Of a DNA stretch of 64,000 nt, positions 2,451-64,000 are shown piece by piece; the stretch's first letter is position 1, and each line of letters opens with the position of its first letter. Where the stretch lies: assembly GCF_014207635.1 (NCBI RefSeq), contig NZ_JACHIE010000004.1:124001-188000 (forward strand), in the 5' to 3' direction. Made by a program: the position numbers and the translations under genes. This DNA comes from Acetobacter lovaniensis. GTDB lineage: Bacteria; Pseudomonadota; Alphaproteobacteria; Acetobacterales; Acetobacteraceae. The notes under the pieces were generated by a model. The model made no database searches. It saw nothing but the letters and a program-made list of their open reading frames with translations, and had not been told where the DNA came from.

Positions 2451-2466
2451 GAGTGCTTCTGCTCCC

Positions 2467-5002: not shown

Positions 5003-5226
5003 ACTCCGAAGGTGAAGGTTTTATAATCCATCCCCCCTCCGCACCGCAAGCCCCCAGTGTTTTTTTTACGCCAGCGCCCGCCCGCACGACAATAATCTGC
5101 AACAGGCACTTGACTTTAGGGCCGCAACATATTTTGTTCCGCCTCCTGTGATGCCCGCAAGATTGTGGCTGGTCAGACGAACGGGTTTCCGTTATAGGTC
5201 TTTTCCAGCCGTGGCGGACACGCTGC

Positions 5227-5303: not shown

Positions 5304-5435
5304 GATTTTCTCGTGGTGTACGGAAGGTTCCGCTTTTCACCTGTAAAATGCGGCTTTATCGTACAATCTGAGTGGTGTTGATTTAAGGCTGCCCCCTTGG
5401 CAACAGAGCGGGGCGGAACAAGGAGAGTGTGCTTC

Positions 5436-5630
5436 GTGTCGTTCAGTCCCGGTAAGTTCCTGCATGATGTGCGTACCGAGGCGGAACGGGTCACATGGCC
5501 CACCCGCCGCGCAACATTTGTCACCACCGGCGCCGTATTGGCCATGGCAGGTATGGCATCCATCTTCTTCTTCGTCGTTGACCAGTTGATCGGTCTCGGT
5601 GTGCGTCAACTTTTCGGGCTGGGAGGCTGA
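5436..5630 (+). CDS. secE: Preprotein translocase subunit SecE
   Basis: Small SecYEG subunit, 64 residues, with the single-helix layout of most bacteria. The amphipathic FLHDVRTEAERVTWP segment (the conserved E-x-x-x-V-x-W-P motif) is followed by one transmembrane helix around residues 25-50. I chose the GTG at 5436 because AAGGAGAG lies 8 bases upstream; an upstream TTG at 5397 would place the RBS inside the gene. nusG starts 9 bases downstream, the classic secE-nusG pair. Confidence 0.95.
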   Translation: MSFSPGKFLHDVRTEAERVTWPTRRATFVTTGAVLAMAGMASIFFFVVDQLIGLGVRQLFGLGG

Positions 5631-5639
5631 GGAAACGGC

Positions 5640-6170
5640 ATGGCCAAGCGTTGGTATGTGGTCCACGTCTATTCGGGCTTCGAAAAGAAAATCGCGCAGC
5701 ACATCCGCGAAGATGCGGCCCAGAAGGGGCTGAGCGACCATATTGACGAGATTCTCGTCCCGTCCGAGGAAGTGATTGAAGTCCGCCGTGGCCAGAAGGT
5801 GAACGCGGAACGCAAGTTCTTCCCCGGTTACGTACTGGTCAAGATGGAAATGACCGACGAGTCATGGCATCTGGTCAAGGACACCCCCAAGGTTACGGGT
5901 TTTCTGGGCACCAAAAACCGCCCTACGCCCATTTCCGCGGCGGAAGCCGAACGGATTATCCGCCAGACAGAGGAAGGCGTGCAGCATCCTCGCTCCGCCG
6001 TTACCTTTGAAGTGGGCGAGCAGATTCGTGTGGCCGATGGCCCCTTCACCTCCTTCAATGGTGTTATTGAAGAAGTGGATGAGGAAAAAGGCCGCCTGAA
6101 AGTCAGCGTTTCGATCTTTGGCCGGTCCACTCCGGTGGATCTGGAGTTCAATCAGGTCGAAAAGCTGTAA
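5640..6170 (+). CDS. nusG: Transcription termination/antitermination factor NusG
   Basis: 176 residues. The NGN domain covers about residues 1-110, beginning [16 protein letters not shown] and containing the [10 protein letters not shown] signature. The KOW domain follows at about 120-155 ([16 protein letters not shown]). NusG binds RNA polymerase and links it to Rho or to the ribosome. The gene is followed within 40 bases by an intrinsic terminator and then by an unrelated gene, not by rplK-rplA. Confidence 0.98.
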
Positions 6171-6200
6171 TTTTTCAGCCCATAGACACAATTTTATATT

Positions 6201-6228
6201 AAGGGCGGCCTCCGGGCCGCCTTTTTTA
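6201..6228 (+). terminator. Rho-independent terminator after nusG
   Basis: GGCGGCC, loop TCCG, GGCCGCC, then TTTTTT. A 7-bp GC-only stem followed by a T run, 30 bases after the nusG stop, closing the secE-nusG transcript. Confidence 0.9.
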
Positions 6229-6361
6229 TTGCTGATATGCACCGTCCATCTGCCTTGCAAACACAACAAACCCGTTCAGGCGTTTGGAACACTCGGGCGC
6301 GTTCCGGGTTGTATCCTTGTCTGTTAGCCTGACGTGGTTTTCGTTTTGCCAAGGAGTTACC

Positions 6362-7990
6362 ATGCCTTTAACCCCGGCTCTTAGAGGAACAGCCCTTCTC
6401 AACAATGCCCTGCTGAACAAGGGCACGGCCTTTACTGAAGCAGAGCGGCGGGAATACGGACTGGAAGGACTCCTGCCCACACAGGTGGAAACACTGGACC
6501 GGCAGGTAGAGCGAATCCACAGGCACCTCGAAGCCAAACCCAGCAATCTGGAACGCTACATCTATCTGAGCGGCCTGCGCGACCAGAACCAGACCCTGTT
6601 CTACCGGGTGCTCATGTCCAACCCCGCGCAGTTTGTGCCCATTGTGTATGCACCTACTCTGGCGGCTGTCTGCCAGCAGTTCAGCCACATCTACCGCCGC
6701 CCGCGTGGCATGTACATCAGTCTGGACATGCGTGGCCGAATCCGTGACGTGCTGCGCAACTGGCCTACGGAGAACGTACGCTTCCTGTGCGTCACCACAG
6801 GAGGCCGTATTCTGGGGCTGGGCGATATTGGCGTGAATGGCATGGGCATTCCCATTGGCAAGCTCGACCTTTACACGGCCTGCGGTGCGGTTCCTCCGGA
6901 AGTGCTCCTGCCCGTGCAGCTTGATATTGGCACAACCAACAGCGCCCTACGGGCAGACCCGCTCTACCTTGGCCTGCGCAGGGAACCCCCTCCGCTGGAA
7001 GAGCTGGACGGGTTTGTGGAAGAATTTGTAAGCGCGGTTAACGACGTCTTCCCTGATTGCTGCCTGCATTTTGAGGACTGGAAGGGCACGGATGCCCTGC
7101 ATTATCTGGACAAATACCGCAACACGGCCCTGTGCTATAATGATGACATTCAGGGCACTGCGGCCGTTACGCTGGCGGGCCTGATTACCGCGCTCAAAAT
7201 CAAGAATGAAACACTGGCGCAGCAGCGCTTTTTATTCCTCGGGGCAGGCTCCTCCGGGCTGGGTACCGCGGATATGCTGATTTCCGCCCTGAAGCAGGAG
7301 GGCATAAGCGCGCAGGAGGCCATTGAGCGCATAACGCTCATGGATGTGAATGGCCTGCTTGAAACCTCCCGCACGGACCTGAGCCCACAGCAGAAACGCT
7401 ACGCCAAAGCCATGCCCCCCTCGCGTGATCTGCTGGCCACAATCAAAGCCTTCAAGCCCACCGTGCTCATTGGTGTTTCAACCTGTGGGGGGGCCTTTAC
7501 GCAGGAGGTTGTGGAAACCATGAGCGCGCTGAACGAACGCCCCATTATTTTTCCGCTCTCCCTGCCCCAGAAAAACGCGGAATGCACGGCCGAGCAGGCT
7601 TATGAATGGTCACAGGGACAGGCACTTTTTGCCGCCGGTCTGCAGTTCCCCGAAGTGGAAATGAACGGGCGGACTTTCTACCCCGGTCAGGCCAACAATT
7701 TTTACATCTTCCCGGCTCTGGGGCTGGCTGTGTACGCCACATGCCCCAAACACATTACGGATGACATGGTCATTGAAACCGCCCGCGCACTGGCGGATCA
7801 GGTAGACCCGGCATCACGCGAGCGGGGCCGCCTGTTTCCACCCCAGAGTGATATTCTGGACGTTTCAATTACGTCTGCTGCGCGTATTGCCGAATTTATT
7901 TTTGATCAGGGTGCCGCAACGGTAGAACGCCCCAAAGATATTCGGGCCTGGATTGAAAGCCTGACGTACAGCCCACGCTACGCGGACTGA
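6362..7990 (+). CDS. maeA: NAD(P)-dependent malic enzyme (oxaloacetate-decarboxylating)
   Basis: Converts malate to pyruvate and CO2 with reduction of NAD(P). The 542-residue length fits the large MaeA/SfcA class, not the MaeB/PTA fusion. I see the catalytic Tyr in VYAPTL (about residue 96), the lysine in IPIGKLDLYTACG (about 167), metal ligands in FEDW (about 238) and NDDIQGT (about 262), and the dinucleotide fold GAGSSG at 294-299. The ATG at 6362 has AAGGAG five bases upstream; the frame is open further up without an RBS. It stands alone between two strong terminators. NAD versus NADP preference cannot be read from sequence here. Confidence 0.93.
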   Translation: MPLTPALRGTALLNNALLNKGTAFTEAERREYGLEGLLPTQVETLDRQVERIHRHLEAKPSNLERYIYLSGLRDQNQTLFYRVLMSNPAQFVPIVYAPTLAAVCQQFSHIYRRPRGMYISLDMRGRIRDVLRNWPTENVRFLCVTTGGRILGLGDIGVNGMGIPIGKLDLYTACGAVPPEVLLPVQLDIGTTNSALRADPLYLGLRREPPPLEELDGFVEEFVSAVNDVFPDCCLHFEDWKGTDALHYLDKYRNTALCYNDDIQGTAAVTLAGLITALKIKNETLAQQRFLFLGAGSSGLGTADMLISALKQEGISAQEAIERITLMDVNGLLETSRTDLSPQQKRYAKAMPPSRDLLATIKAFKPTVLIGVSTCGGAFTQEVVETMSALNERPIIFPLSLPQKNAECTAEQAYEWSQGQALFAAGLQFPEVEMNGRTFYPGQANNFYIFPALGLAVYATCPKHITDDMVIETARALADQVDPASRERGRLFPPQSDILDVSITSAARIAEFIFDQGAATVERPKDIRAWIESLTYSPRYAD

Positions 7991-8005
7991 TTTTTTACAG
8001 ACCAC

Positions 8006-8044
8006 AAAAAAAAACGGAGCGATGTTTCTGCTCCGTTTTTTTTT
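8006..8044. terminator. Bidirectional terminator between malic enzyme and S9 peptidase
   Basis: Nine A, CGGAGC, a nine-base loop, GCTCCG and a run of twelve T. The stem is about 15 bp including A-T pairs, and it has T runs on both strands. It separates two convergent genes. Confidence 0.9.
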
Positions 8045-8069
8045 TTTCGATTCGACTGGGCGTATGCAC

Positions 8070-10034
8070 TCAGGCGTCCATTGGAGGAGCCGGATCAAAC
8101 CCGAAAACCCGGCCATAAAATGCCAGCTCCATGGTCCATGCCTGACGGATGGTCGCCTCCTGACGGAAGCCATGCCCCTCGCCGGGGAATTCATACAACG
8201 TGCAGGGAGCACCCGCCGCACGCAGCGCCGCCGCCATGGCATGAGCCTGAGAGGGGGGAACAACCTTGTCCTCCGCCCCCTGCAACAGCAGCACCGGCGC
8301 CCTTATCCGGCTGGCGACAGAAAGGGGTGAGCGCGCCACATAAACAGACTCCGCTTCCGGCCACGAGCCAACCAGAGCATCAAGGTAGCGCGCTTCAAAC
8401 TTGTGCGTTTCCTGTGCCAATGCGCGCAGGTCGGTAACGCCATACAGGCTGACACCCGCAGCAAACAGGTCGGAGGCGGCCAGCGCGAGCAGCACGGTCA
8501 TTCCCCCCGCACTGGAACCGCGAATGGCGATTCGCTTGGGGTCAACGCGGCCAGTGGCCACCATATGGCGGCAGGCGGCAATGCAGTCCGCCACATCCAC
8601 AATACCCCACTGGCCCTGCAGCCGTTCCCGCCATGACCGCCCAAAGCCTGTAGAACCACCGTAATTAACATCCAGCACGGCAAAACCGCGGGATGTCCAC
8701 CACTGCACCTTAAAGGAAAAACCATCCTGCGCCCGAGCGGTTGGGCCACCATGCACCAGCACGATCATCGGGGGTTTTTCATCCTGTGGCACACAGGCAC
8801 GGCTATTGGCGGGAGGGTAGAAAAAAGCGTGCCCCTGCTGGCCATCGACCCCATCCACCGCAAAACGCACCGATTCGGGGCGGGACATATCCGCCGCCTG
8901 CAAATCCAGAGTGGCAGAACGACGGAGTACCTGCAGCCCCCCCTGTTCGGCAGAACCCACCACCACAGCGGGCAGGGCATCCACAGGTGCCTGCACCCAT
9001 GCAAACCGCCCATCCGCCAATGCAACAGGGCATTGGTCGGGCTGCCCTGCGAAGCTGTGTGTGTGGCCCTCAGCCGTGCGTACAAAACACTGGCCCTCTC
9101 CATCACGCACGCTCAGGACCACACACCCGCCATCGGCCAAAGGCTGGTAGCTGCTTTGGCCAAATACCCATGCGGGCTGGCCAATCTCCCCTTCCGGCAT
9201 GGCATACGCCACCAGATGCGGGGCGGGCTGATGCACAACCTCCCATACCCGCCAGAGTTCGGAACGGTCAGAAATCACAAGCAGGCGGCCATCTGCCGTC
9301 CAGCGCGGCTCCACCAGCGACTCGCCGCCTGCCCCTCCGGCCAGAACCTGCACACCTTCAAGTGCCGCAATGGTGCCATCTGCCCCGCGCACCACACGCC
9401 CCAAGCACAGGCGCGTGGAATCCCACGGCATGTTCGGATGGTCCCACTCAATCCATGCCAGCAACGTACCATCAGGCGAGAGGGTGGGGGACATGTAAAA
9501 ATCCGCACCATGTTGCAGCACCAGCCCATCCGGGCCAGCCTCCCCACCAAGGACGACCATTGTGCTCTGGGGCTCACCGGCCCCGCGGTGGTCCTCCCGC
9601 ACGGCAACAACCGAGGGGCTGGCGGGGTCAAACCGCAGGTCGGCAAAGCGCACGCCCTCTGCCCCGGCCAGAAGGGTGGGGGATCCACTTCCCTGCCCCA
9701 GCAGCCAGACCTGCGCCGTGCGCCGGTCCACATAGACAATACCGTGGGGGGAGACGGCATAAGCGCCTCCTCCATATTCATGCACACGGGTCCCGACATC
9801 GGCCTGCGCGGGCAGTACCTCGGCCACGCCATCGGGTTCTGCCCAGCGCATCAGAACTGTCCGTCCCCCCTCTGCCGGGCGGCGCTCCAACCAGAACACG
9901 GCCTGCCCTGCACTGCGTACCTCTGAAAAGGTCAGGCTTTTACCAGCCACCAGAGTAGCCGTTACGGGGGAGGGCCAACTACCGCAGCGCATGGGCTGGG
10001 ACACTTGAGCATGAGTGCTGTTCTGTTCCATCAT
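8070..10034 (-). CDS. S9 family peptidase (dipeptidyl/acyl-aminoacyl peptidase type)
   Basis: 654-residue prolyl-oligopeptidase-family serine peptidase. The N-terminal ~400 residues are Trp- and Gly-rich, consistent with a beta-propeller. The C-terminal alpha/beta hydrolase domain has VHGGPTA (oxyanion region), the nucleophile motif GSSAGG (Ser508), the acid in LLLQGAEDKVVP (Asp589) and the base in FPGEGHGF (His621), so the catalytic triad is complete. No signal peptide is visible, suggesting a cytoplasmic enzyme acting on short peptides. It is monocistronic and convergent with malic enzyme. Confidence 0.9.
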   Translation of the reverse strand: MMEQNSTHAQVSQPMRCGSWPSPVTATLVAGKSLTFSEVRSAGQAVFWLERRPAEGGRTVLMRWAEPDGVAEVLPAQADVGTRVHEYGGGAYAVSPHGIVYVDRRTAQVWLLGQGSGSPTLLAGAEGVRFADLRFDPASPSVVAVREDHRGAGEPQSTMVVLGGEAGPDGLVLQHGADFYMSPTLSPDGTLLAWIEWDHPNMPWDSTRLCLGRVVRGADGTIAALEGVQVLAGGAGGESLVEPRWTADGRLLVISDRSELWRVWEVVHQPAPHLVAYAMPEGEIGQPAWVFGQSSYQPLADGGCVVLSVRDGEGQCFVRTAEGHTHSFAGQPDQCPVALADGRFAWVQAPVDALPAVVVGSAEQGGLQVLRRSATLDLQAADMSRPESVRFAVDGVDGQQGHAFFYPPANSRACVPQDEKPPMIVLVHGGPTARAQDGFSFKVQWWTSRGFAVLDVNYGGSTGFGRSWRERLQGQWGIVDVADCIAACRHMVATGRVDPKRIAIRGSSAGGMTVLLALAASDLFAAGVSLYGVTDLRALAQETHKFEARYLDALVGSWPEAESVYVARSPLSVASRIRAPVLLLQGAEDKVVPPSQAHAMAAALRAAGAPCTLYEFPGEGHGFRQEATIRQAWTMELAFYGRVFGFDPAPPMDA

Positions 10035-10197
10035 CTTCCCAGTTTATCATGCAAAATGCCCTGAACGGAAAGGCATGTGCCGCTTTGCATTCCATGCTAG
10101 GCAGGGCATACGGACCTGCTGTTTTTTCCTGTGGGCTTGACATGACGGGAGCGACTCTGCTCCTCCCCACTCCTGACGATGTTCTCTCTGAATTGGA

Positions 10198-10881
10198 TTG
10201 TCTGTCCTGTTACACGCTCTGGAATCCATCTTTTCGCTTGATTACCTGACAACCCTGTTCACCCGGTACGGTTATGGGGTGGTTGGAGTGGTTGTTATGC
10301 TGGAAAGCATGGGCCTGCCCCTTCCTGCGGAAAGTCTGCTGATTACCGGGGCCATTTTTTGTGCGACCACCCACAAGCTCCAGATCGAAGGCATTATTGT
10401 TGCCGGGGTGACAGGGGCGATCATGGGGGACAATCTGGGCTACCTGCTTGGCCACTATCTGGGCCTTGGGCTTTTGCGCAAGCACGGCCCACGCTTTGGC
10501 TTAACCCCTGAGCGCCTGCTGCTGGGGCGTTATGTTTTTCTCAAGCATGGCGGGCCGGTTATCTTTTTTGGTCGCTTTGTGGCCATCCTGCGGATGTTTG
10601 TTGCCATACTGGCCGGAGCGAACCGTATGCCCTGGCATACGTTTCTGTTCTATAACGCACTTGGTGGCGTGTTCTGGGCTGGAGGATACACAACATGCGC
10701 CTACCTGCTGGGAAGCGAGATTGCCAAGCTCTCCGGCTGGCTGGCCGTAGGCTTTGGGGCCGCGACTCTGGTGGTTATTGGCGTGCTGTTCGTGTTCATC
10801 AAGCACAATGAAAAACGTCTGACGGAGGAAGCCATGAAAGCAGCAGAACAGGATGAGCAGCTCAAAGCCCCCCTGCCATGA
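10198..10881 (+). CDS. DedA family (SNARE-associated/VTT domain) membrane protein
   Basis: 227 residues with four to five hydrophobic segments. DedA hallmarks are visible: the MLESMGLPLPAESLLITGAI segment with the conserved acidic residue, GDNLGYLLGHYLG, and the FFGRFVAILRMFVAILAGANRM arginine motif (F/Y-G-R-x-x-x-x-R). DedA proteins are inner-membrane lipid or polyisoprenyl-phosphate transporters in the families tested. The start is a TTG at 10198 with no clear RBS, so it is uncertain. Its TGA overlaps the next gene's ATG (ATGATG), implying coupled translation. Confidence 0.88.
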   Translation: MSVLLHALESIFSLDYLTTLFTRYGYGVVGVVVMLESMGLPLPAESLLITGAIFCATTHKLQIEGIIVAGVTGAIMGDNLGYLLGHYLGLGLLRKHGPRFGLTPERLLLGRYVFLKHGGPVIFFGRFVAILRMFVAILAGANRMPWHTFLFYNALGGVFWAGGYTTCAYLLGSEIAKLSGWLAVGFGAATLVVIGVLFVFIKHNEKRLTEEAMKAAEQDEQLKAPLP

Positions 10882-11828
10882 TGGGCCGCAGTCCCTGGCG
10901 GGTGAACAGCACACAGCCGGACCTCCACCGGCGCGTAGCCCTTATAACCGGCGCAAACAGCGGTCTGGGGTTTGAGGCCGCACTCGGCCTTGCCCACCGT
11001 GGCGCAAAACTTCTTCTACCGGTCCGCAACCCCGAAAAAGGGCAGAATGCCCTGAACCGCCTGCGCGCGGACTGTCCCCGGGCGGATGTGACCCTGCTCC
11101 CGCTTAATCTGGCCTCCCTCCGCTCCGTGGCGGAATGTGCGCGAGCGGTTGCCGAGTTGACAGACCGGATTGATATCCAGATCAACAATGCTGGGATCAT
11201 GGCCCCGACGCGACGTATGGAAACCGAGGATGGATTCGAACTCCAGTTCGGCGTGAACCATCTGGGCCATTTTGCCCTGAGCGCACATCTGCGCCCCCTG
11301 CTTGAAGCGGCAAAGGGTGGAGGCGTGCTTGTAACCGTAGCCAGCCTTGCTGCGGGTAAAAACACCATCCACTTCAACGACCTGCAATGCCGCCACAGGT
11401 ATAGCCCGTTCGGGGCGTACCAGCAGAGCAAGCTGGCCAACCTGCTTTTCGCGCAGGAACTTGCCCGCAGAGCGGGGGAACGAGGCTGGAACGTCCACTC
11501 CCGCGCGGCGCATCCGGGGTGGGCGGCTACCTCCATTGTGGCTAACGGGCAGGCATCGACGCTACCCAAGCCACTAGGGCTGATCGAACAGACCCTTGGT
11601 ACGGCTATCCTGCGCGTTATGGGCCAGTCCGCCGCCAAAGGAGCCGAACCCCTGCTGTATGCTGCCCTCGCCCCTCAGGCGCGGGATGGAGATTACTATG
11701 GCCCGCAGGGCGCAGGTGAACGCCGTGGCCCGCCCGGCCCGGCCATTGTGCCCCCCACAGCCCGCAAGACCAGCCTGGCCACCCGCCTGTGGGATGTTTC
11801 GGAACGGCTGACCAACACGGCCTGGTAA
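10878..11828 (+). CDS. Short-chain dehydrogenase/reductase (retinol dehydrogenase-like)
   Basis: 316-residue SDR with a complete signature: cofactor loop TGANSGLG at 24-31, NNAG at 103-106, catalytic Ser156, and Tyr181/Lys185 in YQQSK. The length and C-terminal tail resemble the retinol-dehydrogenase/WW-domain oxidoreductase-like group of bacterial SDRs; substrate unknown. The start codon overlaps the dedA stop by four bases, so the two are probably one transcript. It is convergent with the helicase gene, 12 bases away. Confidence 0.88.
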   Translation: MMGRSPWRVNSTQPDLHRRVALITGANSGLGFEAALGLAHRGAKLLLPVRNPEKGQNALNRLRADCPRADVTLLPLNLASLRSVAECARAVAELTDRIDIQINNAGIMAPTRRMETEDGFELQFGVNHLGHFALSAHLRPLLEAAKGGGVLVTVASLAAGKNTIHFNDLQCRHRYSPFGAYQQSKLANLLFAQELARRAGERGWNVHSRAAHPGWAATSIVANGQASTLPKPLGLIEQTLGTAILRVMGQSAAKGAEPLLYAALAPQARDGDYYGPQGAGERRGPPGPAIVPPTARKTSLATRLWDVSERLTNTAW

Positions 11829-54648: not shown

Positions 54649-54743
54649 TGGCACTGGCACTGGCACTGGCACTGGCACTGGCACTGGCACTGGCACTGGC
54701 ACTGGCACTGGCACTGGCACTGGCACTGGCACTGGCACTGGCA
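54649..54743. repeat. Hexanucleotide tandem repeat (TGGCAC), 15 full copies plus a partial
   Basis: Uninterrupted TGGCAC units from 54649 to 54738 plus TGGCA to 54743. All frames through it are open (Trp-His, Gly-Thr, Ala-Leu on plus; Val-Pro and others on minus), which creates long artificial open frames across it and across adhB antisense. The flanks do not look coding, so I treat it as a non-coding VNTR. Confidence 0.97.
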
Positions 54744-55276
54744 TATCTCGTGGTTCTGTCCAGCACTTAATGCAAACAACCACGATGAAACAGACTGCCT
54801 TGCTGCTCCTTACAGCATCACATGCATCCAGCAGGACTACACGCACCCCTGTTTGCCAGACATCCAAACGGACGGGCTAAAGCCAACACAAACACTCTGG
54901 AGCAAAGGGCAAGAGAATGGGGGAGGTTCACGACCACCCTGCCTGAGATATATGCTGCATTCTAAAGCATGTATCTGGATAAGGCTGCGCGCCACCCACC
55001 AAGCGGGGGACGCGCCAATTCCATAAAGATTTGAAATGTAAAAAACACAGGACTGATCATCTTATATGAGGATTATTACCCCAACGCGAAGGATCCAGAC
55101 CGCTTCCTTCGCACAATTATTCTTATGGCGTCCCATATCAGAAAAACCGTAGATACTCTACGCATAGATTACATGGAAAATTATTTCTAAAACTATTATA
55201 TTATCAAAGGATTTTTCCATCCACTTCAAGAGAATTACACGCCTGAAGTGGACCGGAAAAAACTCCAAGCGTTCTT
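54744..55276. other. Gene-poor region after the tandem repeat
   Basis: About 530 bases, AT-rich towards the right end, with no convincing gene. Short inverted repeats are present: CGTAGA/TCTACG at 55148-55162 and CCACTTCA/TGAAGTGG at 55221-55251. The latter lies just past the monooxygenase gene and may act in ending that transcript, though it lacks a T run. Confidence 0.45.
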
Positions 55277-56548
55277 TTAACCAACTTTATCCTGCTTGAA
55301 ATGCGGCGGGAAAACCAGAGGGTCCTGATGCAGAACATGTTTACCAATCACGCGACGGGCCAATACTTCCGGGTCATGGGAAGACAGGGTTCTGACATCC
55401 CGCCAGTACTGGTCAAAATCTGCTTCCCGTGCGGTTGAACGCCCCCCCAGCAACTCAAAAACACGTGGTGTGATATGCAAAGCTGTGCGTGCAGCAAAAG
55501 TACGGAGCGAGAGTGTTTCAAGCGCAATAGCGCCATAATCTTTTTCCGTCAGGGAAGAGCGCCGGTCCCATTGTTCCTGCACAAAAGCAATGGTTCTCTC
55601 AAAATACACCTGAGCCGCCTGAACCTGCACCCAGTATTCAGCAAATTCAGCCTGAATGAACGGGTCATCCGCCGAAATACTGACACCCCCAAAGCTGCCC
55701 TGCCTGCGCCCTTGCAGCACCCACTTGCGCGCATGCTCCAAAGCACCCAGCGTGCGGCCGATGAACACAGCCGTATAAAAAATGGCACCAAAGCTGGCCC
55801 ACAAGGGCAAGGGGCCGGTCTGGGCCGGGCTGTGGCCCCAATGCAGGACGTCTTCTGGCAAAATCCGCACATTATGGAAGGTAATGGTACCTGAATCCGT
55901 GCCGCGCAAACCAATGGGGTCCCAGTCATTATGGAACTCCAGCCCCTCACGCGCTGTGGGAATTACAGCGTAAATGTAGTGATCTCGGTCGGGGTGAATG
56001 GCCAGCACTGTTGTAATTTCTGCCAGTGGCGCACCCGTGTTCCACTTTTTGGTCCCGGTAATTGTAAATCCGCCATCCGCATGGTGCTCTGCCACAAACT
56101 CCTTGTTCACATACTGTGTGACATTGCCCCAGAAAAAGCGGTTATTCGCAGCATGACGCACCACATCATCATTCGCGCCAGTGTAGTCCGTTAGCAGCGG
56201 CACAAGGGAGTTATAGTAATTAAACCCAAGCAGCGCTGCTGTTGAACCATCCACCTTGGCAATTTCCAGCACACTTTGTGCAGCATCGCGGAGCGAACCT
56301 CCACCGCCCCCAAGATTTTTGGGGTAGAGCAGGCTGACAAGCCCGCTTTCGCGCAGGCGGCGGATCTGCTCCACAGGCCTTGCGCCATCCAGATCACGCT
56401 GAATAGCACCTTCGGCAAATTCATACGCAAGTTTTTGCGCGGCATCCACCCAGTCCTGTGGGTAAGGGGCCACTGCCTGCGGGCGCGTGGCACGCACAAG
56501 ATCATTACGAGGAGCAGGAAAGCTCTTGTTTTTTTCGATGAAAGTCAT
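55277..56548 (-). CDS. DszC/SfnB-like flavin-dependent monooxygenase (acyl-CoA dehydrogenase fold)
   Basis: 423 residues. Acyl-CoA dehydrogenase-like helical N-domain, then a beta domain with FTITGTKKWNTGAPLAEITTVLA and DWDPIGLRGTDSGTITFHNVRI, the pattern of DszC/SfnB reduced-flavin monooxygenases in place of that of true acyl-CoA dehydrogenases. DszC oxidises dibenzothiophene sulfur; SfnB is linked to dimethylsulfone use. No flavin reductase is seen in the window. The ATG at 56548 is four bases after the MFS stop, with only a weak purine-rich RBS. Last gene of the five-gene operon. Confidence 0.8.
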   Translation of the reverse strand: MTFIEKNKSFPAPRNDLVRATRPQAVAPYPQDWVDAAQKLAYEFAEGAIQRDLDGARPVEQIRRLRESGLVSLLYPKNLGGGGGSLRDAAQSVLEIAKVDGSTAALLGFNYYNSLVPLLTDYTGANDDVVRHAANNRFFWGNVTQYVNKEFVAEHHADGGFTITGTKKWNTGAPLAEITTVLAIHPDRDHYIYAVIPTAREGLEFHNDWDPIGLRGTDSGTITFHNVRILPEDVLHWGHSPAQTGPLPLWASFGAIFYTAVFIGRTLGALEHARKWVLQGRRQGSFGGVSISADDPFIQAEFAEYWVQVQAAQVYFERTIAFVQEQWDRRSSLTEKDYGAIALETLSLRTFAARTALHITPRVFELLGGRSTAREADFDQYWRDVRTLSSHDPEVLARRVIGKHVLHQDPLVFPPHFKQDKVG

Positions 56549-56552
56549 GAGA

Positions 56553-57839
56553 TCAATCTTTCTTTGAGTCGTTCTTGGCGTGAACTGCCAGCCAGATCCA
56601 GAAGATGGATGATGCTGCATAAAAAGCCGGTCCAATAAGAATAGCCTGTGCCAGACCTGCATGATCGGAAATCAGACCTAGAAGCCATGGGGCAAAAAGC
56701 CCTGACGCTCCACCAGCAACCATCGCACCAAACGAACCGGAAATAGTGCGCAAAGCCGGAGGCACGGTTTCAACCAGCAGCGTGGTCAGGCTACCTGCCG
56801 TGGCACCAAAGGAGGCAATGGCCAGCAGGGAAAAAACCTCGCAGACGCGTAGGGAAGATGCCGTAAAACCAATGGTGAACAAAACCGAGGCCAATAGCGC
56901 GCTTACGGCAAGGGACGCGGCAATGCCCCCCGTGCGCCCGGCCAGATAACGCCCCGTCAACCAGCCACCCACCGGCCCCGCCGGAAGGGTGAGCATAAGG
57001 GCTGAGAACGCAAAGCCCGTGGCATGCAGGTTATCCAGGCCATGCACCCGGTGCAAAAACGCAGGAAGCCACATCTGCGCTGTAATTGTGCCGGAAAAAA
57101 ACAGGCTTAGAGCGATCAGATGTGTGGTGTAGGGAACAATACGAAAAACAGAAAACTGTTGTTCCCAGCTTACCCTGTTCTCTACCGTGGATACGTGGCC
57201 ATCCGACTGGCCCGGAACCGGTTCAGGCACAAACAATAACAGAAAGCCCAGAACAAGACCCGGCAGACCAGTGAGAAAAAATGCCTGATGCCAGTTGGAG
57301 TGGGCTGCAATCCATCCCCCAACACCAAAAGCCAGCGCAGACCCGAGCTTGTTACGCAACATGAAAAGAGAAAAAACGAAGTTCCGCTGTTTCCTGTTAT
57401 AAAGATCAGCCAGCCAGCCCGGCACAATACCCTGATAGGCAGCCATGCCAAAACTGGTGAGAGTGCGCCACAAAACCAGTGTTGCCAGACCAGTAGAAAG
57501 CGCACTACCCGCCGATGCCAGACTCCACAGCACAATGGACCCGACCAGCACGGAACGGCGACTGAACCGTGCTGCCAGCACCGCAAAAAGTGGTGCGCCC
57601 AGAATACCCGCCAGTGTGGAGGCTGAAGATACACTCCCAAACGCAGCATCCGAAAGATGGAGATCCGCCTTGATTGGTGTCAGCAATCCGGAAAGAACCA
57701 TATTATCCATGGCGCAAACCGTACCCGTTGCCAGCAGCAGCACCAGTGCTGGATGGCGTGACAATGCCGTGCCGGTTACAGCTGGCTGATTTGTCACGTG
57801 CGGGGTAACTGAAGAGAGTGTGGTTGCAGTGGAAGACAT
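56553..57839 (-). CDS. MFS transporter
   Basis: 428 residues and twelve predicted helices. The loop 2-3 motif is GSVSSASTLAGILGAPLFAVLAARFSRR (G-x-x-x-D/A-R-x-x-R like). The ATG at 57839 follows GAGGAT by about nine bases and the previous stop by ten. Substrate unknown; in context it would import or export a compound handled by the adjacent monooxygenase, DszB-like protein and amidohydrolase. Confidence 0.87.
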   Translation of the reverse strand: MSSTATTLSSVTPHVTNQPAVTGTALSRHPALVLLLATGTVCAMDNMVLSGLLTPIKADLHLSDAAFGSVSSASTLAGILGAPLFAVLAARFSRRSVLVGSIVLWSLASAGSALSTGLATLVLWRTLTSFGMAAYQGIVPGWLADLYNRKQRNFVFSLFMLRNKLGSALAFGVGGWIAAHSNWHQAFFLTGLPGLVLGFLLLFVPEPVPGQSDGHVSTVENRVSWEQQFSVFRIVPYTTHLIALSLFFSGTITAQMWLPAFLHRVHGLDNLHATGFAFSALMLTLPAGPVGGWLTGRYLAGRTGGIAASLAVSALLASVLFTIGFTASSLRVCEVFSLLAIASFGATAGSLTTLLVETVPPALRTISGSFGAMVAGGASGLFAPWLLGLISDHAGLAQAILIGPAFYAASSIFWIWLAVHAKNDSKKD

Positions 57840-57849
57840 GGCTGTATCC

Positions 57850-58896
57850 TCATACCGGTTGAGGGTGCGTCTGTTCGAAAACCGCAGCATTTTGGGGGGC
57901 TCGCTGCGCAAGGGCTGTGGCATCTGCCAGAATTGAGCGGTCAATCCAGCTTTCCAGATCAAAGTCTTTTTTGATCAGCCCCTGGCGCAGCAAAAAGGTT
58001 TTTTGCGCATCCAGCGTCGAGACATAATCATCATTCAGGTCCAGCCTGATACCCTGCGCGATGTTCTCATACACTGCGGCAAGGTTTTCTGGTGCCTGCC
58101 CCAGATCGGTTGCCAGAGCCCGCAGGGCATCCAGCGGCTGGGTTGCCGCACGCTCTGCCGTGCGCACAAGCGTTGCCACAATGCGCACCAGCAGGTCTCG
58201 CTGCTCTTCAATCAGCGCCGTACTGACCACCAGACCACGCAGCACGGAAGGATGCACGCGCGAGATAAGGTCCGGGGCAAGCCGGGTATCGTACACCACA
58301 TTCAGGCGTGGGTAGAGGCCACCATCGGGGGGGATGGGTGCGGCTACCGCATCCACAATACCGTCTTCCAATGCCGCCAGAGCTGACTGAAAACCCGCGA
58401 GCAGAAAACTCTTCCGCTCCCCGCGTGGGGGAAAAATGCGCGGAATACGCACCAGTTCAACATCATCAAGACCCAGCCCGACAGTGGCCAGAGTGGTCTG
58501 ATAAATCTTGAGCTGTTGTGCGATCATCAGGTCAAACGGGCTATCGGGGTTGTAAAATACCGCAAGCCGCTTGCCTTTAAGCGCCTCGGGCTGTGCAAGC
58601 CCGGAAGAATGGAGGCTCAACACCGGGTAGTGGCCATCCAGAAAGGCAAGACCCACAACCTTGCAGTCCACGCCATGGCTTTTTTTCCATATGGCTGGTG
58701 CATGCCCAGCATTGCGGAGCCAGAACCGATCTTTGTGATCGTATTCCGTTTTGGGTGAAAACCCTACAGACTGAAAAACAATTTCAACATCGTGCTCTTC
58801 TGCAAACTCAGCACGTAGCGTGCCCCAAGCTTCTGCCAATGCGCTAATAGTCGGCACAGACGGGCAACGGGTATAATGAATAACCGGACGGGTCAT
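57850..58896 (-). CDS. DszB/NMT1-like protein (candidate desulfinase or substrate-binding fold)
   Basis: 348 residues with no signal peptide, so cytoplasmic despite a periplasmic-binding-protein fold. The N-terminus IHYTRCPSVPTISAL resembles the DszB segment containing catalytic Cys27 (Tyr-x-x-Cys-Pro), placing Cys11 here in that role. WLRNAGHAPAI aligns with the DszB Arg70 region (R-x-G-G/H), and the C-terminal KTFLLRQGLIKKDFDLESWI also matches. DszB cleaves the C-S bond of an aryl sulfinate. Alternative: a nitrate/sulfonate ABC binding protein without its transporter. AGGAG lies nine bases before the start. Confidence 0.72.
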   Translation of the reverse strand: MTRPVIHYTRCPSVPTISALAEAWGTLRAEFAEEHDVEIVFQSVGFSPKTEYDHKDRFWLRNAGHAPAIWKKSHGVDCKVVGLAFLDGHYPVLSLHSSGLAQPEALKGKRLAVFYNPDSPFDLMIAQQLKIYQTTLATVGLGLDDVELVRIPRIFPPRGERKSFLLAGFQSALAALEDGIVDAVAAPIPPDGGLYPRLNVVYDTRLAPDLISRVHPSVLRGLVVSTALIEEQRDLLVRIVATLVRTAERAATQPLDALRALATDLGQAPENLAAVYENIAQGIRLDLNDDYVSTLDAQKTFLLRQGLIKKDFDLESWIDRSILADATALAQRAPQNAAVFEQTHPQPV

Positions 58897-58902
58897 GAAT
58901 TT

Positions 58903-59958
58903 TTACTCCTGTGGGGCAACCTGCACACCATGACGTTCCAAAAGCTGCTGTGCATTCCAAAAAAGAACTGATTTCTGACCATCGGGGTCGGTTGCCGTTG
59001 CCGCGCGTACACGCTCAAGCGTAGGCCCAATATCGGGCACCGGGGCATAGTCCGAGCCAAAGACAACGCGCTCAGACCCCAGAACCCGCACGGCTGCGGC
59101 AACAGCTGCTGTGCCACTGCCTGCTGCCCCCGTATCCAGCCATATCTGCTTAAAATGCTCACGCAGCGGGCCAGCCTGCACACGGGGGGAAACTACGGCC
59201 TGTTCGGCCGCCAGCGCCCCCAGTGCCGTACCACCGAGCATGGCTATCTGAATTGTCACATCGGGGAATGGGGCCAGAAAATCCGTAAACGCCAGCGTTG
59301 CAACGGCAGATGCAAAGCAGAACCCGTTGTCTATGACCCAGCGCAGGGCTTCATTATCATCATGTAGAATATCGGGGGGCTGGCCATGAACCTTGGGGCT
59401 GGCAAACCCCGTATGCAGGTAAATATGGCTGCGATGCGCCTGAGCCACTTCGAATATCCCCCGAAAGGCCTCTGCCGAACGACGGGAGAAAAATCCGTTA
59501 ACAGGTAATACCCCCCCGATTAGGCCCAGTTGTTCATGCCCGCGTTCCAGCTCTTTGGCAGACCAGGCCAGATTATCCGTGCTGAGCGCCGCCACGGCGC
59601 TAAAGCGGTCCGGGTGCTGGGCCACAAGAGCAGCGGTATCGTTATTCCACTGCGTCCACAGGTCCTGCGTATCAGAAAAGGGGAGTGCGGCATCTACCCC
59701 CAGTGTTGTTGGCCATGACAAAAGCTGGTGCGCAATCCCTACATTATCCAGATGAGACAGTCGGGTTTGCAAATCGCACCATTGCGCACCAAGGGGGAAT
59801 GCTCCCCCCTTGCCTGCCCCCGCTCCCGTGCGCCAGATGGCGAGTTGATCTCCCTGACGGCCAATACGCGGTGCCTCCGCACGGCGCCCAAGAATATCCA
59901 GTGTGGAAGGTGCAAACCAGTGGGAGTGCAGGTCGATTACAGTCTTATGGGTTGTCAT
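58903..59958 (-). CDS. TIM-barrel amidohydrolase (ACMSD/decarboxylase-like)
   Basis: 351 residues. DLHSHW near residue 10 gives the HxH metal pair, IYLHTGF the third His, and VFGSDYAP the Asp, as in amidohydrolase_2 enzymes (ACMSD, gamma-resorcylate decarboxylase type). The usual HxGG near residue 250 reads AMLGG, so one ligand or catalytic His may be missing. AGGAGAG is about nine bases upstream, overlapping the end of the receptor gene. Likely hydrolyses or decarboxylates a ring product in the pathway of this operon. Confidence 0.8.
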   Translation of the reverse strand: MTTHKTVIDLHSHWFAPSTLDILGRRAEAPRIGRQGDQLAIWRTGAGAGKGGAFPLGAQWCDLQTRLSHLDNVGIAHQLLSWPTTLGVDAALPFSDTQDLWTQWNNDTAALVAQHPDRFSAVAALSTDNLAWSAKELERGHEQLGLIGGVLPVNGFFSRRSAEAFRGIFEVAQAHRSHIYLHTGFASPKVHGQPPDILHDDNEALRWVIDNGFCFASAVATLAFTDFLAPFPDVTIQIAMLGGTALGALAAEQAVVSPRVQAGPLREHFKQIWLDTGAAGSGTAAVAAAVRVLGSERVVFGSDYAPVPDIGPTLERVRAATATDPDGQKSVLFWNAQQLLERHGVQVAPQE

Positions 59959-59970
59959 GACGCACTCTCC

Positions 59971-62430
59971 TCAGAAAAAGTCCACACGGGCCGAAAGCAG
60001 GAACATGCGGGGATTGCTGTACTGATAAGTAAATGTCTGGCTTGTTGCGGAATACGGCAGCACCTGCACCAGATAACGGTTACCGGTAATATTGTTGACG
60101 ATCCCGCTGATTTCCCATCGGCTGTTCCCCGGACGGAAGGAGGCATGAACATCCCCCAGCCAGACAGACGATTGCTGAAGGGCAGACGCTTTTTCGTTTG
60201 AAACAAGGTAGTAATAATGCCCAGTATAGTTCCAGCGCGTGCCAACACTGCCGTTGCCAATACCGGTGCGGAAGTTCCAGTCCACCGAAATATTGGCTGT
60301 CTGATGTGGCGCACGGGCGAACTCGTTACCCTTCAGGCTGGTTGCACCCGTGGGAGCGGTAAAGTCCGTAAACTTTGTTCTGAGAACACCCACATTCCCA
60401 GATATTGTCAGGTCATCAATCGGGCGGGCCTGAAAGGAAAACTCACCCCCCAAAGTGCGCCCGGATGCGGCATTGGTAAGAGAAATAATGGTCGATTTTG
60501 TTGCGGCATCCGTTGCGGTCCAGGAGGTCTGGATATTGTCGTATTTTGAGTAAAAACCATCGGCACTCAGGGTCAGGCGATGGTTAAACCAGCTTCCTTT
60601 GTAACCGGCTTCATAGGATGTCAGGGTTTCAGGGTTAACCGGCTGCGCTGTCTGCAACGGCGTGCCACCCCTATTAACCGGGTTGGGGGTAATCTGGGTA
60701 TTGAACACGCCTGAACGATAGCCATCGGCAATACGCACGTAGAGCATCTGATCTTTTCCGATCAGGAACTGCGGCTCCACATCAAAGCTGACATTCGACC
60801 AGCTTTTGCCACCATGGTAACTATCAATCCCCGTTATGGGTGAGAGAACGCTCTGGGCATTCCACCAGTTTGTCGCATTCCCTGCAAACGAAACCGGAGA
60901 CCTTGCCTGAACACTATCCAGATCAAGGCGCAGATGGTCGTGCGTCCACCTTACCCCACCAGCAACCTGAAACCACGGCACAACATGGATGGTTGTATTG
61001 CCAAAAATAGCAAAACTATCTGTAGTTTGCCGGTATTGTGTGGATGTAAAGGCAGGCTGGCCAATAATAGCGGGCGTTGTAGGCGCGCCGGGGGGGAGCG
61101 TTGCGGTCGCGTAGTGGTCGTTCAGGGTTTCATGAAAATAATAAGCGCCTGCAATCCATGCGATCCGCTGGTGTGGGTCTGATGCAAGACGAAACTCCTG
61201 ACTGACCTGTACAGGGTGCAGTTTGTCATAAGACCTGCTGTATTCAAGGGGTGTGTAATCTCCATCCCCGCTCTGGCGGCGCTGTGCGTTTTCAAACGCG
61301 GTAATGGAGGTAAAGGTCAGCCCTTGCCCCGGATGCCACGTTGTGTGCAGGGATACCCCCTCCGACACAAGGGCCTGACGCCCGTTTACGTTGGAATTGG
61401 TCCAGTCCCTGCTTGATGTTTTAAGCGGTGAATATACTGACGTACCCGAAGCGCTATAATAAGGCACGTTGGAACTCTGCATGTCACGCACATGCGTATT
61501 CAGCAGAAACTCCAGATCATCCGATGGCCGCCAGAGCGTTTGAAAGCGGGCGGCAAAGTCACCAAAATTACCGACATCCTTGCCTGTGCTGGCATTTTTT
61601 GCCCAGCCATCCGAATTTTCCTGCCGAACAGACAGGCGGGTGGTCAACGTATTGGCGGTAATGGGGGTGTTGATAACAAACTCACCCCGCTTTTGACCAT
61701 AATCGCCAAAATCGACCTGTGCGTGACCCTCTTTTTTAAATTCGGGACGGCGGGAGGTAAACTGTATGGCCCCTGCCGTTGCATTCTTGCCCCACAAGGT
61801 GCCCTGCGGACCGTTAAGAATGGCAACCTGCGCCTGATCAAACAGCGGGAAGCCCTGAAAGCTCAGGCTGTTCAGATACACATCATCCGCATAAACCGCC
61901 ACCGCACCAATGGCGTTATTGGCCACATTCCCGTTGCCAACACCACGGATGTAATACCGGGGGCGCAAGCGACCATCAAAATTATACCCCAGCACGTTGG
62001 GGGCAAAAGCGGCCACATCGGCTGCACTATCCAGATGCTGCCGGGCAATGGTGGTTGCACTGATTGCCGTAACGGTGGCCGCAACCTTTTGAATATCCTG
62101 CGTGCGCCGGTTGGCTGTGACCATAACGGTCTCCAGCCCACCTGATGCCGCAGGAGAAGCCACCTTGCCCACTTTGCTGGCCTTGCCGCCCCTGGCAGAA
62201 GCAGGGGCGATTTTGGCACCTGAAGGTTTGCCCTGTGTTTCGGCTTTGGCGGAAGATGTGGCGGACGCCACAAGACCCGATGCAAGGATCAGGGATGGCA
62301 AAGCGGCGCAAGCAAGCCGGTTCCGCCTGGACAGGCAGGCCATAGCCCGCCCCGAAAGGGAGAGGAAGGACCGGGGAGCCGAGAGTGAGGAAGGGTAAAT
62401 CATGTTCCACGCCGCGTTGTTTTTAACCAT
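59971..62430 (-). CDS. TonB-dependent outer-membrane receptor
   Basis: Up to 819 residues. Signal peptide region ends near SSAKA, then an Ala/Lys/Ser-rich linker and the TonB box region ETVMVTANRRTQD. The plug domain contains YYIRGVGNG and ILNGPQGTLWGKNATAGAIQF, and the barrel ends in the aromatic residue typical of outer-membrane proteins (RVDFF). The start is uncertain (62430, 62403 or 62343; none has a clear RBS). First gene of the operon, so probably the uptake gate for its substrate. Closer in look to xenobiotic/iron-pseudo-siderophore receptors than to siderophore-specific ones, but not assignable. Confidence 0.9.
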   Translation of the reverse strand: MVKNNAAWNMIYPSSLSAPRSFLSLSGRAMACLSRRNRLACAALPSLILASGLVASATSSAKAETQGKPSGAKIAPASARGGKASKVGKVASPAASGGLETVMVTANRRTQDIQKVAATVTAISATTIARQHLDSAADVAAFAPNVLGYNFDGRLRPRYYIRGVGNGNVANNAIGAVAVYADDVYLNSLSFQGFPLFDQAQVAILNGPQGTLWGKNATAGAIQFTSRRPEFKKEGHAQVDFGDYGQKRGEFVINTPITANTLTTRLSVRQENSDGWAKNASTGKDVGNFGDFAARFQTLWRPSDDLEFLLNTHVRDMQSSNVPYYSASGTSVYSPLKTSSRDWTNSNVNGRQALVSEGVSLHTTWHPGQGLTFTSITAFENAQRRQSGDGDYTPLEYSRSYDKLHPVQVSQEFRLASDPHQRIAWIAGAYYFHETLNDHYATATLPPGAPTTPAIIGQPAFTSTQYRQTTDSFAIFGNTTIHVVPWFQVAGGVRWTHDHLRLDLDSVQARSPVSFAGNATNWWNAQSVLSPITGIDSYHGGKSWSNVSFDVEPQFLIGKDQMLYVRIADGYRSGVFNTQITPNPVNRGGTPLQTAQPVNPETLTSYEAGYKGSWFNHRLTLSADGFYSKYDNIQTSWTATDAATKSTIISLTNAASGRTLGGEFSFQARPIDDLTISGNVGVLRTKFTDFTAPTGATSLKGNEFARAPHQTANISVDWNFRTGIGNGSVGTRWNYTGHYYYLVSNEKASALQQSSVWLGDVHASFRPGNSRWEISGIVNNITGNRYLVQVLPYSATSQTFTYQYSNPRMFLLSARVDFF

Positions 62431-62549
62431 TTACTATTTTGATTAGTATTAATTCGTTGCATTTTACGACAGTGACGGCTTTTATAATTTTTATGGGTAC
62501 GGTTTAAACGATATTAAATAGTGCAATATGCGCATGAAAGTAGGCCCGC
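62431..62549. promoter_or_regulatory. Divergent promoter region between receptor operon and MocR-like regulator
   Basis: 119 AT-rich bases between two divergent genes; expected to hold both promoters and the regulator's operator. I see no unambiguous -10/-35 pair. MocR/GntR operators are often direct repeats, which I could not identify with confidence. Confidence 0.5.
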
Positions 62550-64000
62550 ATGTTTGTGCCCCAGCTTGACCGCAATTCCCGCGAAGGGCTGCAAAAACAG
62601 ATTATGCGGCAGATTATTGCCGCCATTGCCTCTGGCATGCTGCGCCCCAACACCCCTCTGCCGGGCATAAGGGAGGCATCCGTACGCTGGGGCGTATCGC
62701 GCAATACGGTCGTGCTTGTTTTTGAACATCTGGAAACGGAAGGGTATTTGCAGACGCGCCCTTCACGCGGGACATTCATCCACCCCACACCACCATGCAG
62801 CACCAGCTCCGTTGCGCAGTTGGGGAATGAACGCGGTGCCGCGGCCGCATCCCTTGGGGAGCCATCATGGCCCGGTCAGGCTTTTATCGGAGACCCGGCA
62901 CAGGAACGCCAAACACCCGATGGAGTCTTTAACCTCGGTTTTGGCAGCAACATGCCACTTTATCGTTTTCCCGCATGGCAAAAAACCATCGAGCGCCTGC
63001 TGCTGCGCGATAACTGGAAACGGGGGGGCGAGTTCCAGCCCAATGCCGGGCTCCCCTTCCTGCGTTCAACGCTGGCCCGGTGGCTGCATTTACGCCACGG
63101 CGTCACCATTGACCCGCAGCAGATCATTATTGTTACGGGGCTACAGCAAGCGCATTCCATTATCGCACATGCCCTGCTTAAAACCGGCGACCATGTGATA
63201 CTTGAAGACCCATGCTACCCGGGAAAACGCCAGTTATACGAAAAACTGGGCATGCACGTGATTAACGGCGCAATTGACCGCAAGGGGATCAAGCTGGCTG
63301 ATCTGGCCCCCGAGCAGGCACGCCTTTTATGCGTTAATCCGGGGTGCCACATCCCGACCAATGTCACGCTTTCTCTGCCGCGTCGCAAACATATTGCAGC
63401 ACTGGCCATGCAGGACCGCTGCCTTGTGTTTGAAGAAGCGATGTATGACCTGCTCTCGTTTGAAAAAAAACCGATCCCCTCCCTTCTCTCCCTTACAGGG
63501 GGGCGCAACCTGCTCCATGCGGGCCTGTTTGCTCCCTGCCTTGGTGGCGGGCTGATGCTTGGGTATCTGGTCGTCCCCTGGTCCTTCCTGCCGGCCGTGC
63601 TGGAAGCCAAGCTGCTTACGGGGAACGGCCTGCCCTGGCTGGAGCAGGAAGCTCTGGCCCGCATGCTGGACTCGGGCGAGCTGGACAATGCCCTGCGCCG
63701 TACACGGGTGGTTATGATGCGCCGCAGAGAGGTTTTTATGGCCGCATTGGAACGGTTTTTTGGTCGTATGGAATTCTGCGGCACAGAGCATGCCCCCCGC
63801 CTGAGCTGGTTCCTGCCCGGTGGGTTCGGCAAGGTGCAGCCTTTCCTGACCGAGGCGGAAGAAGCAGGAATCCGCTTCCCCGGTAATTATGCTGCAGCCA
63901 GCAGCCGCTCCCACCCGGGCCTGCCGGACCTGCCTAACCTTGTGTCCCATGGTTATGGAGAAATATCGGAAGAAGACATTCCAGCCCTTTTTTCCAGACT
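62550..64000 (+). CDS. MocR-type (GntR-aminotransferase) regulator lacking the PLP lysine, 3' end missing
   Basis: At least 483 residues, cut by the window end but nearly full length. N-terminal GntR winged helix (QKQIMRQIIAAIASGML…GVSRNTVVLVFEHLETEGYL) and a fold type I aminotransferase domain. At the place where MocR proteins have the Schiff-base Lys (F-S-K-T-L-x-P-x-x-R-x-GY) this one reads LFAPCLGGGLMLGY with Pro329 in place of Lys. The D-x-x-Y PLP ring Asp segment reads FEEAMYD, and the C-terminal substrate Arg segment is also changed. It probably does not bind PLP covalently. It likely controls the divergent receptor operon. Confidence 0.82.
   Translation, partial: MFVPQLDRNSREGLQKQIMRQIIAAIASGMLRPNTPLPGIREASVRWGVSRNTVVLVFEHLETEGYLQTRPSRGTFIHPTPPCSTSSVAQLGNERGAAAASLGEPSWPGQAFIGDPAQERQTPDGVFNLGFGSNMPLYRFPAWQKTIERLLLRDNWKRGGEFQPNAGLPFLRSTLARWLHLRHGVTIDPQQIIIVTGLQQAHSIIAHALLKTGDHVILEDPCYPGKRQLYEKLGMHVINGAIDRKGIKLADLAPEQARLLCVNPGCHIPTNVTLSLPRRKHIAALAMQDRCLVFEEAMYDLLSFEKKPIPSLLSLTGGRNLLHAGLFAPCLGGGLMLGYLVVPWSFLPAVLEAKLLTGNGLPWLEQEALARMLDSGELDNALRRTRVVMMRRREVFMAALERFFGRMEFCGTEHAPRLSWFLPGGFGKVQPFLTEAEEAGIRFPGNYAAASSRSHPGLPDLPNLVSHGYGEISEEDIPALFSR

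Follow-up and report, generated by a model that had tools for sequence, protein, structure and literature searches.

A TonB receptor, amidohydrolase, DszB-like, MFS and DszC-like gene block conserved in acetic acid bacteria, with a candidate role in organosulfur uptake and breakdown

The 4S desulfurization operon of actinobacteria, dszABC, encodes DszC and DszB in one operon. DszC-type enzymes require reduced flavin, and to our knowledge outer-membrane import is not part of the known desulfurization operons. Published accounts describe active-site roles of DszB residues (PMC12168087) and a catalytic role for DszC His391 (PMC11134501). Regulators of the MocR type are stated often to bind direct repeats, the form reported for GabR and TauR (PMC5320631).

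We examined a 64,000-nucleotide stretch of the Acetobacter lovaniensis genome (assembly GCF_014207635.1, contig NZ_JACHIE010000004.1, positions 124,001 to 188,000; hereafter the window). It holds a block of five genes for a TonB-dependent receptor, an amidohydrolase, a DszB-like protein, a major facilitator superfamily (MFS) transporter and a DszC-like monooxygenase, with a divergent gene for a MocR-type regulator. An earlier note on the window had described the block as a candidate operon, with an aromatic or alkyl organosulfur compound as a first guess at the substrate. Computation establishes the gene order, its conservation, the protein families, losses of individual residues and a predicted fold; our preferred reading of the block, at roughly even odds, is an inducible pathway for the uptake and breakdown of a scarce organic compound, most likely a sulfur-containing one.

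Layout and conservation of the gene block

All five genes lie on the minus strand, in the order receptor (819 residues; 59971..62430; Pfam Plug and TonB_dep_Rec_b-barrel), Amidohydrolase_2 family protein (351 residues; 58903..59958; PF04909), DszB-like protein (348 residues; 57850..58896; assigned by a profile match to DszB 2de2, a fold match, a tree and residues), MFS transporter (428 residues; 56553..57839; Pfam MFS_1) and DszC-like flavin-dependent monooxygenase (423 residues; 55277..56548; assigned by NCBIfam DszC and SfnB matches below cut-off, PDB matches and a tree). The gaps between them are 12, 6, 10 and 4 nt, and Shine-Dalgarno-like sequences (GAGGAG, AGGAG and GAGG) overlap the stops preceding the second, third and fourth genes; no clear one was seen upstream of the fifth when that junction was inspected. 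The MocR gene (488 residues; plus strand, 62550..64000, ending 16 bases past the window; frame 8550-10016 of the locus) starts 119 bases from the first receptor ATG. Translation of the receptor may in fact begin at a later ATG, closer to the signal peptide, and the MFS start was taken at an ATG, a longer TTG frame also being present. The tight spacing, the ribosome-binding sites overlapping preceding stops (at three of the four downstream genes) and the position of the regulator are all as the earlier note had them, and its family names agree with the Pfam, NCBIfam, profile and tree results. Neither DszA nor a flavin reductase was found in the five-gene block among open reading frames and Pfam matches, so the block is not the classical 4S pathway, again as the note had held. 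The G+C content of the block (0.554) equals that of the window (0.555), and thus gives no sign of recent acquisition. Between the block and a cytochrome c gene, at about 54649-54750 (estimated), lies a short tandem repeat whose plus-strand reading is (Trp-His)n and whose minus-strand reading is (Ala-Ser)n.

Two exact peptide patterns, run against one genome from each of 84,980 species, returned 12 loci, ten of them in Acetobacteraceae (three Acetobacter, four Gluconobacter, one Brytella and two Gluconacetobacter) and two in Betaproteobacteria; because exact peptides were needed, more distant copies of the block would be missed. The five-gene order recurs in the ten further Acetobacteraceae loci and is not a feature of one strain. 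With the window's own locus included, the MocR, receptor, amidohydrolase, DszB-like, MFS and DszC-like genes have the same order and orientation in 11 of 11 loci. Relative to the ten other loci, the products of the structural genes are 67-99% identical, except for a 67-residue fragment encoded by the A. papayae DszB-like gene (61%), and MocR is 51-99.6% identical; identities with Acetobacter fabarum LMG 24244 are 97-99.6% for all six proteins. The A. lambici MocR match ends close to a contig end. In the draft genome of Acetobacter papayae JCM 25143 (locus 6537-11039) the receptor and DszB-like genes are fragmented, sequencing error and decay being indistinguishable. The genes flanking the block vary among the five loci compared (the window's own, L011, L012, L013 and L022); in L022, a Gluconobacter metagenome-assembled genome, an SfnB-like gene (1448-2800; 239 bits, below cut-off) adjoins the MocR gene.

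The distribution of the block across genomes is patchy. The amidohydrolase was found at E 1e-30 in 4 of 49 Acetobacter genomes, and the DszB-like protein at an identity of at least 66% in 4 of 299 genomes of the family (6 of 299 when every match at E 0.001 is counted). A phylum-wide amidohydrolase profile search (E 1e-30) hit 1 of 398 genomes, the window's own. On viral contigs, 37 stretches matched a pattern and none encoded a relative. Searching plasmids with the DszB-like protein gave 82 records, all below 60% identity and the best among the matches listed at 31%; the amidohydrolase gave seven, the best at 39%.

Zoogloea sp. LCSB751 carries, on one strand, MFS, monooxygenase, amidohydrolase, DszB-like and receptor genes in that order, with products 35-53% identical to those of the window. 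The MFS-monooxygenase and amidohydrolase-DszB-like pairs are kept and the receptor position is shifted; the divergent gene there is of the AraC type, and no MocR match was found in the 16.8 kb locus. In a bog betaproteobacterium, a monooxygenase gene cut by the contig end precedes an amidohydrolase gene, and a second amidohydrolase gene and a DszB-like gene lie further on; this locus gave no receptor match. The MFS-family gene by the second amidohydrolase gene was considered as a relative of the window's MFS gene and rejected (E 0.33; a second MFS gene matched at 24% over 158 residues). The monooxygenase rows of both loci start within their frames or at a contig end.

The DszB-like and DszC-like proteins

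The DszB-like protein has no Pfam match, and its sole NCBIfam match is to SsuA_fam (57.4 bits; cut-off 163.5). DszB from an annotated dszABC operon (plasmid pMyong1) also matches SsuA_fam best (65.4 bits), so that the match does not imply a binding protein; E. coli SsuA and TauA score 288 and 134 bits. No NCBIfam DszB model was among the matches of the window's protein or of pMyong1 DszB. Against PDB sequences, the single sequence gave no match up to E 1, and a profile of four orthologues found DszB 2de2 first (E 0.00032, C-terminal half only). A model predicted from 12 sequences (predicted local distance difference test score, pLDDT, 85.9) has its best fold match in DszB 2de2 (E 2e-17; template modelling score, TM, 0.70; root-mean-square deviation, rmsd, 5.7), followed by SsuA (E 1e-14; TM 0.65/0.73; rmsd 3.8).

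A 22-protein tree places four transport-binding proteins on one side and DszB with 17 others on the opposite side (90/92), and unites the eight block proteins in one clade (100/100). The tree took 6 of the 11 Acetobacteraceae sequences and includes one doubtful row, G143a (a 658-residue frame lacking the Cys-Pro motif). The earlier note had named clustering with sulfonate/nitrate-binding proteins as the result that would speak against it; the protein instead separates from the sulfonate/taurine-binding proteins at this node. A Cys-Pro motif occurs in 17 of 18 rows on the DszB side (G143a being the exception) and in none of the four transport-binding proteins. The DszB positions Cys27, Arg70 and Gly73 are conserved in all 13 block copies; the separate structure alignment excluded A. 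papayae on account of its broken frame. Three of four distant relatives aligned with the block proteins keep DszB His60. Seven of the 13 block copies have a His three residues past that position, and His65, four residues past the conserved arginine, is invariant in all 13; that His65 stands in for His60 is a guess. By these residues the block proteins form a new subfamily. His60 is missing from all of it, which means that a DszB-type reaction cannot be taken for granted.

The fold comparison bears on a quite improbable alternative, that the DszB-like protein would be a cytoplasmic binding or sensing protein with no catalytic function. The lower rmsd of SsuA, the fact that the only curated match is SsuA_fam (below cut-off) and the loss of His60 would fit such a role. 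Set against it are the invariant Cys and Arg positions, the SsuA_fam match given equally by the annotated dszABC-operon DszB, the lack of an ATP-binding cassette (ABC) transporter in the block, and a crude hydropathy analysis in which the DszB-like protein has no hydrophobic N-terminal stretch, unlike four of four transport-binding proteins.

Genes for distant DszB-like proteins, of which we examined the neighbourhoods at a handful of loci and not as a survey, adjoin luciferase-type monooxygenase genes in Sphingobium, where the locus also carries annotated sulfonate transport genes, and in Rhizobium. One adjoins an SfnB-group gene in genome G027, and on pSymA of Sinorhizobium meliloti one directly follows an acyl-CoA-dehydrogenase-family gene, with sulfate transport genes about 10-15 kb off. 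These loci suggest that DszB-like proteins are commonly paired with oxidative flavin enzymes, and in this way they support a role as an enzyme for the one in the window.

The monooxygenase scores 217.8 bits with the NCBIfam DszC model (equivalog cut-off 850; pMyong1 DszC, as control, 865.4), 173.4 bits with SfnB TIGR04022 (cut-off 430.9) and at most 70.3 bits with models for acyl-CoA dehydrogenases and hydroxylases. Its best PDB matches are DszC (E 3e-54), methanesulfinate monooxygenase (E 1.5e-53) and a thermophilic DszC. A tree that took 4 of the 11 Acetobacteraceae sequences, and in which MsuC is absent, unites the six block sequences in a single clade (100/100), which lies with DszC (82/90, weak) and is separate from the SfnB group. 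CaiA, the sole certain acyl-CoA dehydrogenase in the tree, lies outside and is 19% identical to the monooxygenase. The His of the HDP motif, which we take to be DszC His391, is present in 19 of 20 alignment rows, including all six from the block, and missing in CaiA. The enzyme falls with DszC and SfnB and not with true acyl-CoA dehydrogenases, the outcome that the earlier note had named as speaking against its reading. At the position that we take to be DszC His92, nine of 13 block copies have His, as do 18 of 20 family rows, the window's sequence and CaiA being the exceptions.

Outside the block, the 3.46 Mb genome carries two Flavin_Reduct genes and two luciferase-like genes; the latter meet the cut-offs of other families. 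On contig C10, a TIGR04027 luciferase-like monooxygenase gene and a TIGR04029 CMD-domain gene adjoin a further TonB receptor gene, and the group may be another locus for oxidative scavenging.

Amidohydrolase, transporters and regulator

Among solved structures the amidohydrolase is closest, with low similarity (E 1.5e-8), to aromatic decarboxylases, LigW among them; the substrates of this group include 5-carboxyvanillate, dihydroxybenzoate and resorcylate. All 14 copies have the metal-ligand positions HxH, His182 and Asp303; LigW differs where the block protein has HxH. A strand-6 His has a role in Amidohydrolase_2 decarboxylases, and in the block protein it is replaced by AMLGG. The enzyme may act by hydrolysis or by decarboxylation. 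The MFS transporter, 64-71% identical to its counterparts in three other genera, has its best curated matches in the organic-anion (2A0114) and aromatic-acid (2A0115) transporter models, both below cut-off.

These two proteins bring in the main rival to a sulfur pathway, which we consider rather unlikely: a route for a sulfur-free aromatic acid, in which the monooxygenase would hydroxylate the ring, the amidohydrolase would decarboxylate or hydrolyse, and the DszB-like protein would be a decarboxylase or lyase on a periplasmic-binding-protein fold. Besides the aromatic decarboxylases and the anion transporter models, it can draw on 4,5-dihydroxyphthalate decarboxylase (9jp7), which has the same fold and ranks 42 in the search with the DszB-like model. 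It can also draw on a plasmid of Acinetobacter sp. NCu2D-2 (1092-11561), where genes for TonB/ExbB/ExbD, a receptor, a substrate-binding-protein-dependent ABC transporter, a 39% identical amidohydrolase relative and a DOPA 4,5-dioxygenase-family protein lie together; the amidohydrolase relative is in a row with the dioxygenase-family gene and therefore speaks for an aromatic substrate. Against the aromatic route, the strand-6 His found in those decarboxylases is absent from the amidohydrolase, the Cys and Arg positions of DszB do not vary, DszB is the best match both by sequence and with the better fold model, and the two Dsz-like proteins occur together.

The receptor is 75-99% identical in the ten other Acetobacteraceae loci and 35% in Zoogloea, and meets no curated NCBIfam subfamily cut-off. 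At E 1e-5 it matches one PDB entry alone, FyuA, the pesticin receptor, over residues 101-285, the plug region. FyuA is the yersiniabactin receptor, and siderophore uptake by a receptor paired with an MFS permease is known. Both observations would suit a system in which receptor and MFS protein import a foreign iron chelate, which might be a thiazoline siderophore, and the enzymes destroy it so that iron (and sulfur) is freed; so would the Acinetobacter relative, with its own TonB/ExbB/ExbD and ABC transporter beside the receptor. We consider this improbable, since the FyuA similarity is limited to the plug and no Fur-box-like site was found in the window's own, the Acinetobacter and Zoogloea regions or nine of the ten other Acetobacteraceae regions (best 11-12 of 19 positions, shuffles reaching 15; L015, A. 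fabarum LMG 24244, was left out of the scan).

The profile of the MocR-type regulator covers both GabR domains, the winged helix and the aminotransferase-like domain. The lysine of the GabR FSK motif, which holds pyridoxal 5'-phosphate (PLP), aligns with proline (FAP) and is lost in 10 of 10 covered orthologues, and the pyridine-aspartate position (Asp279) is Ala or Ser in the same number; Asp279 was assigned within EDDYD from published numbering, and the A. lambici MocR stands outside the residue count. According to one classification, Lys312 and Asp279 are conserved across all of its MocR clusters (PMC6677901). Conventional use of PLP by the block protein is therefore improbable.

A candidate operator, GTACCCAT, was found in 11 of 11 divergent promoter regions. 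In the window it reads CCGTACCCAT on the minus strand at 62502-62493, with a degenerate second copy 24 nt on at 62478-62469 (whole site 62469..62502). Across the 11 loci, several of which are close relatives, a second copy fits best at this spacing, where 61% of 88 positions match (47% at the next spacing); its agreement is 5-7 of 8 positions for Gluconobacter and Gluconacetobacter and 3-4 of 8 for Acetobacter (4 of 8 in the window) and Brytella. In the window's own genome there are two perfect matches, one being the block site. With up to one mismatch the genome holds 24 places, against 29 for the reversed control, and because of this a wider regulon cannot be claimed.

Proposed pathway and comparison with known systems

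We propose, at a probability of about 0.5, that the block serves the TonB-energised import and C-S cleavage of a presumed organosulfur compound with no adjacent DszA, its sulfur presumably being released. The receptor, to judge from its family, would pass the compound across the outer membrane, and the MFS protein, whose closest curated models are organic/aromatic anion transporters, would bring it into the cytoplasm. There the DszC-like two-component monooxygenase would oxygenate it at the sulfur or at the sulfur-bearing carbon, with reduced flavin from a reductase encoded elsewhere, for which a RutF/HpaC-like protein is the best candidate. The metal-dependent amidohydrolase might then open or trim the product by hydrolysis or decarboxylation, in the place of DszA in the 4S pathway, and the DszB-like enzyme, with its partly conserved catalytic residues, may cut the C-S bond through the conserved Cys and Arg and free sulfite. 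The MocR-type protein, predicted to be unable to hold PLP in the usual manner, would control the block through the conserved GTACCCAT site.

Several observations weigh against this proposal. The two Dsz-like genes are the only sulfur-type genes of the block, and the typed flanks give a sulfur-type gene beside it in L022 alone (SfnB-like, below cut-off). The monooxygenase falls far short of the DszC and SfnB cut-offs, its DszC His92 position (residue 110 of the window's protein) holds Asn in all four Acetobacter copies, and carbon hydroxylation also occurs among relatives of DszC. DszB His60 is kept in 0 of 13 block copies, and the block motif TRCP[SAG]VPT has one residue more than the CPxP motif of DszB. 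SsuA fits the better DszB-like model with the lower rmsd (3.8 vs 5.7) and the higher target-length TM (0.73 vs 0.70), and a poorer four-sequence model (pLDDT 63.1) ranks SsuA first and DszB third. The acyl-CoA-dehydrogenase-family neighbour in Sinorhizobium groups, on long branches, with CaiA and not with DszC. The RutF/HpaC-like reductase is below the NCBIfam cut-offs, and the second Flavin_Reduct protein has no NCBIfam match. Taken as a whole, the reading in the earlier note is supported in part: it stands as regards families, operon, conservation and the departure from 4S; a sulfur-containing substrate is a presumption, and a DszB reaction cannot be relied on given the missing His60. The loss of the two main PLP residues in MocR had gone unremarked in the note. 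It is possible, and we advance it tentatively, that the block represents a new desulfurization-type pathway, TonB-fed and under PLP-free MocR-type control, in which the amidohydrolase replaces DszA and a DszB subfamily lacking His60 makes the last C-S cut.

Literature searches found no report joining dszB, dszC and a TonB-dependent receptor (broader matches were not examined in full), none of organosulfur desulfurization in acetic acid bacteria, and none for Acetobacter fabarum joining a TonB-dependent receptor and a monooxygenase, and the single report found to combine a desulfinase, SfnB and an amidohydrolase concerns Gordonia; on the strength of these limited searches we call the block undescribed. 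If the proposal is right, some acetic acid bacteria would possess an organosulfur pathway of their own with active outer-membrane import. It would include a DszA-free route and a DszB relative with an altered active site, informing C-S cleavage on that fold. A MocR protein conserved without its PLP residues would mean that the aminotransferase-like domain can sense something else.

Among described systems, the regulators GabR and TauR share the winged helix and aminotransferase-like domain with the block MocR, and its site may be a direct repeat like theirs, whereas neither the Lys312 nor the Asp279 position is kept. LigW/ACMSD-type enzymes share the Amidohydrolase_2 family and the metal-ligand positions with the block amidohydrolase, which differs in lacking the strand-6 His. 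SsuA and TauA, which bind sulfonates, have the overall fold of the DszB-like protein; the latter has no signal-peptide-like stretch, possesses the Cys-Pro motif and is separate in the tree. SfnB and the methanesulfinate (MsuC-type) monooxygenases belong to the flavin-monooxygenase family of the block enzyme, which forms its own clade (100/100) outside the SfnB group. The 4S dszABC operon, represented here by pMyong1, also combines DszC-like and DszB-like proteins (31% and 24% identical to those of the block, respectively), and in both systems the flavin reductase is probably supplied from elsewhere. In contrast to dszABC, the block has receptor, amidohydrolase and MFS genes, has no DszA, and encodes a DszB-like protein that lacks His60. 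In two parts, then, the block is like a desulfurization operon; by its sequences it is not a member of the dszABC system, because DszA is absent, His60 is lost and the DszC cut-off is missed.

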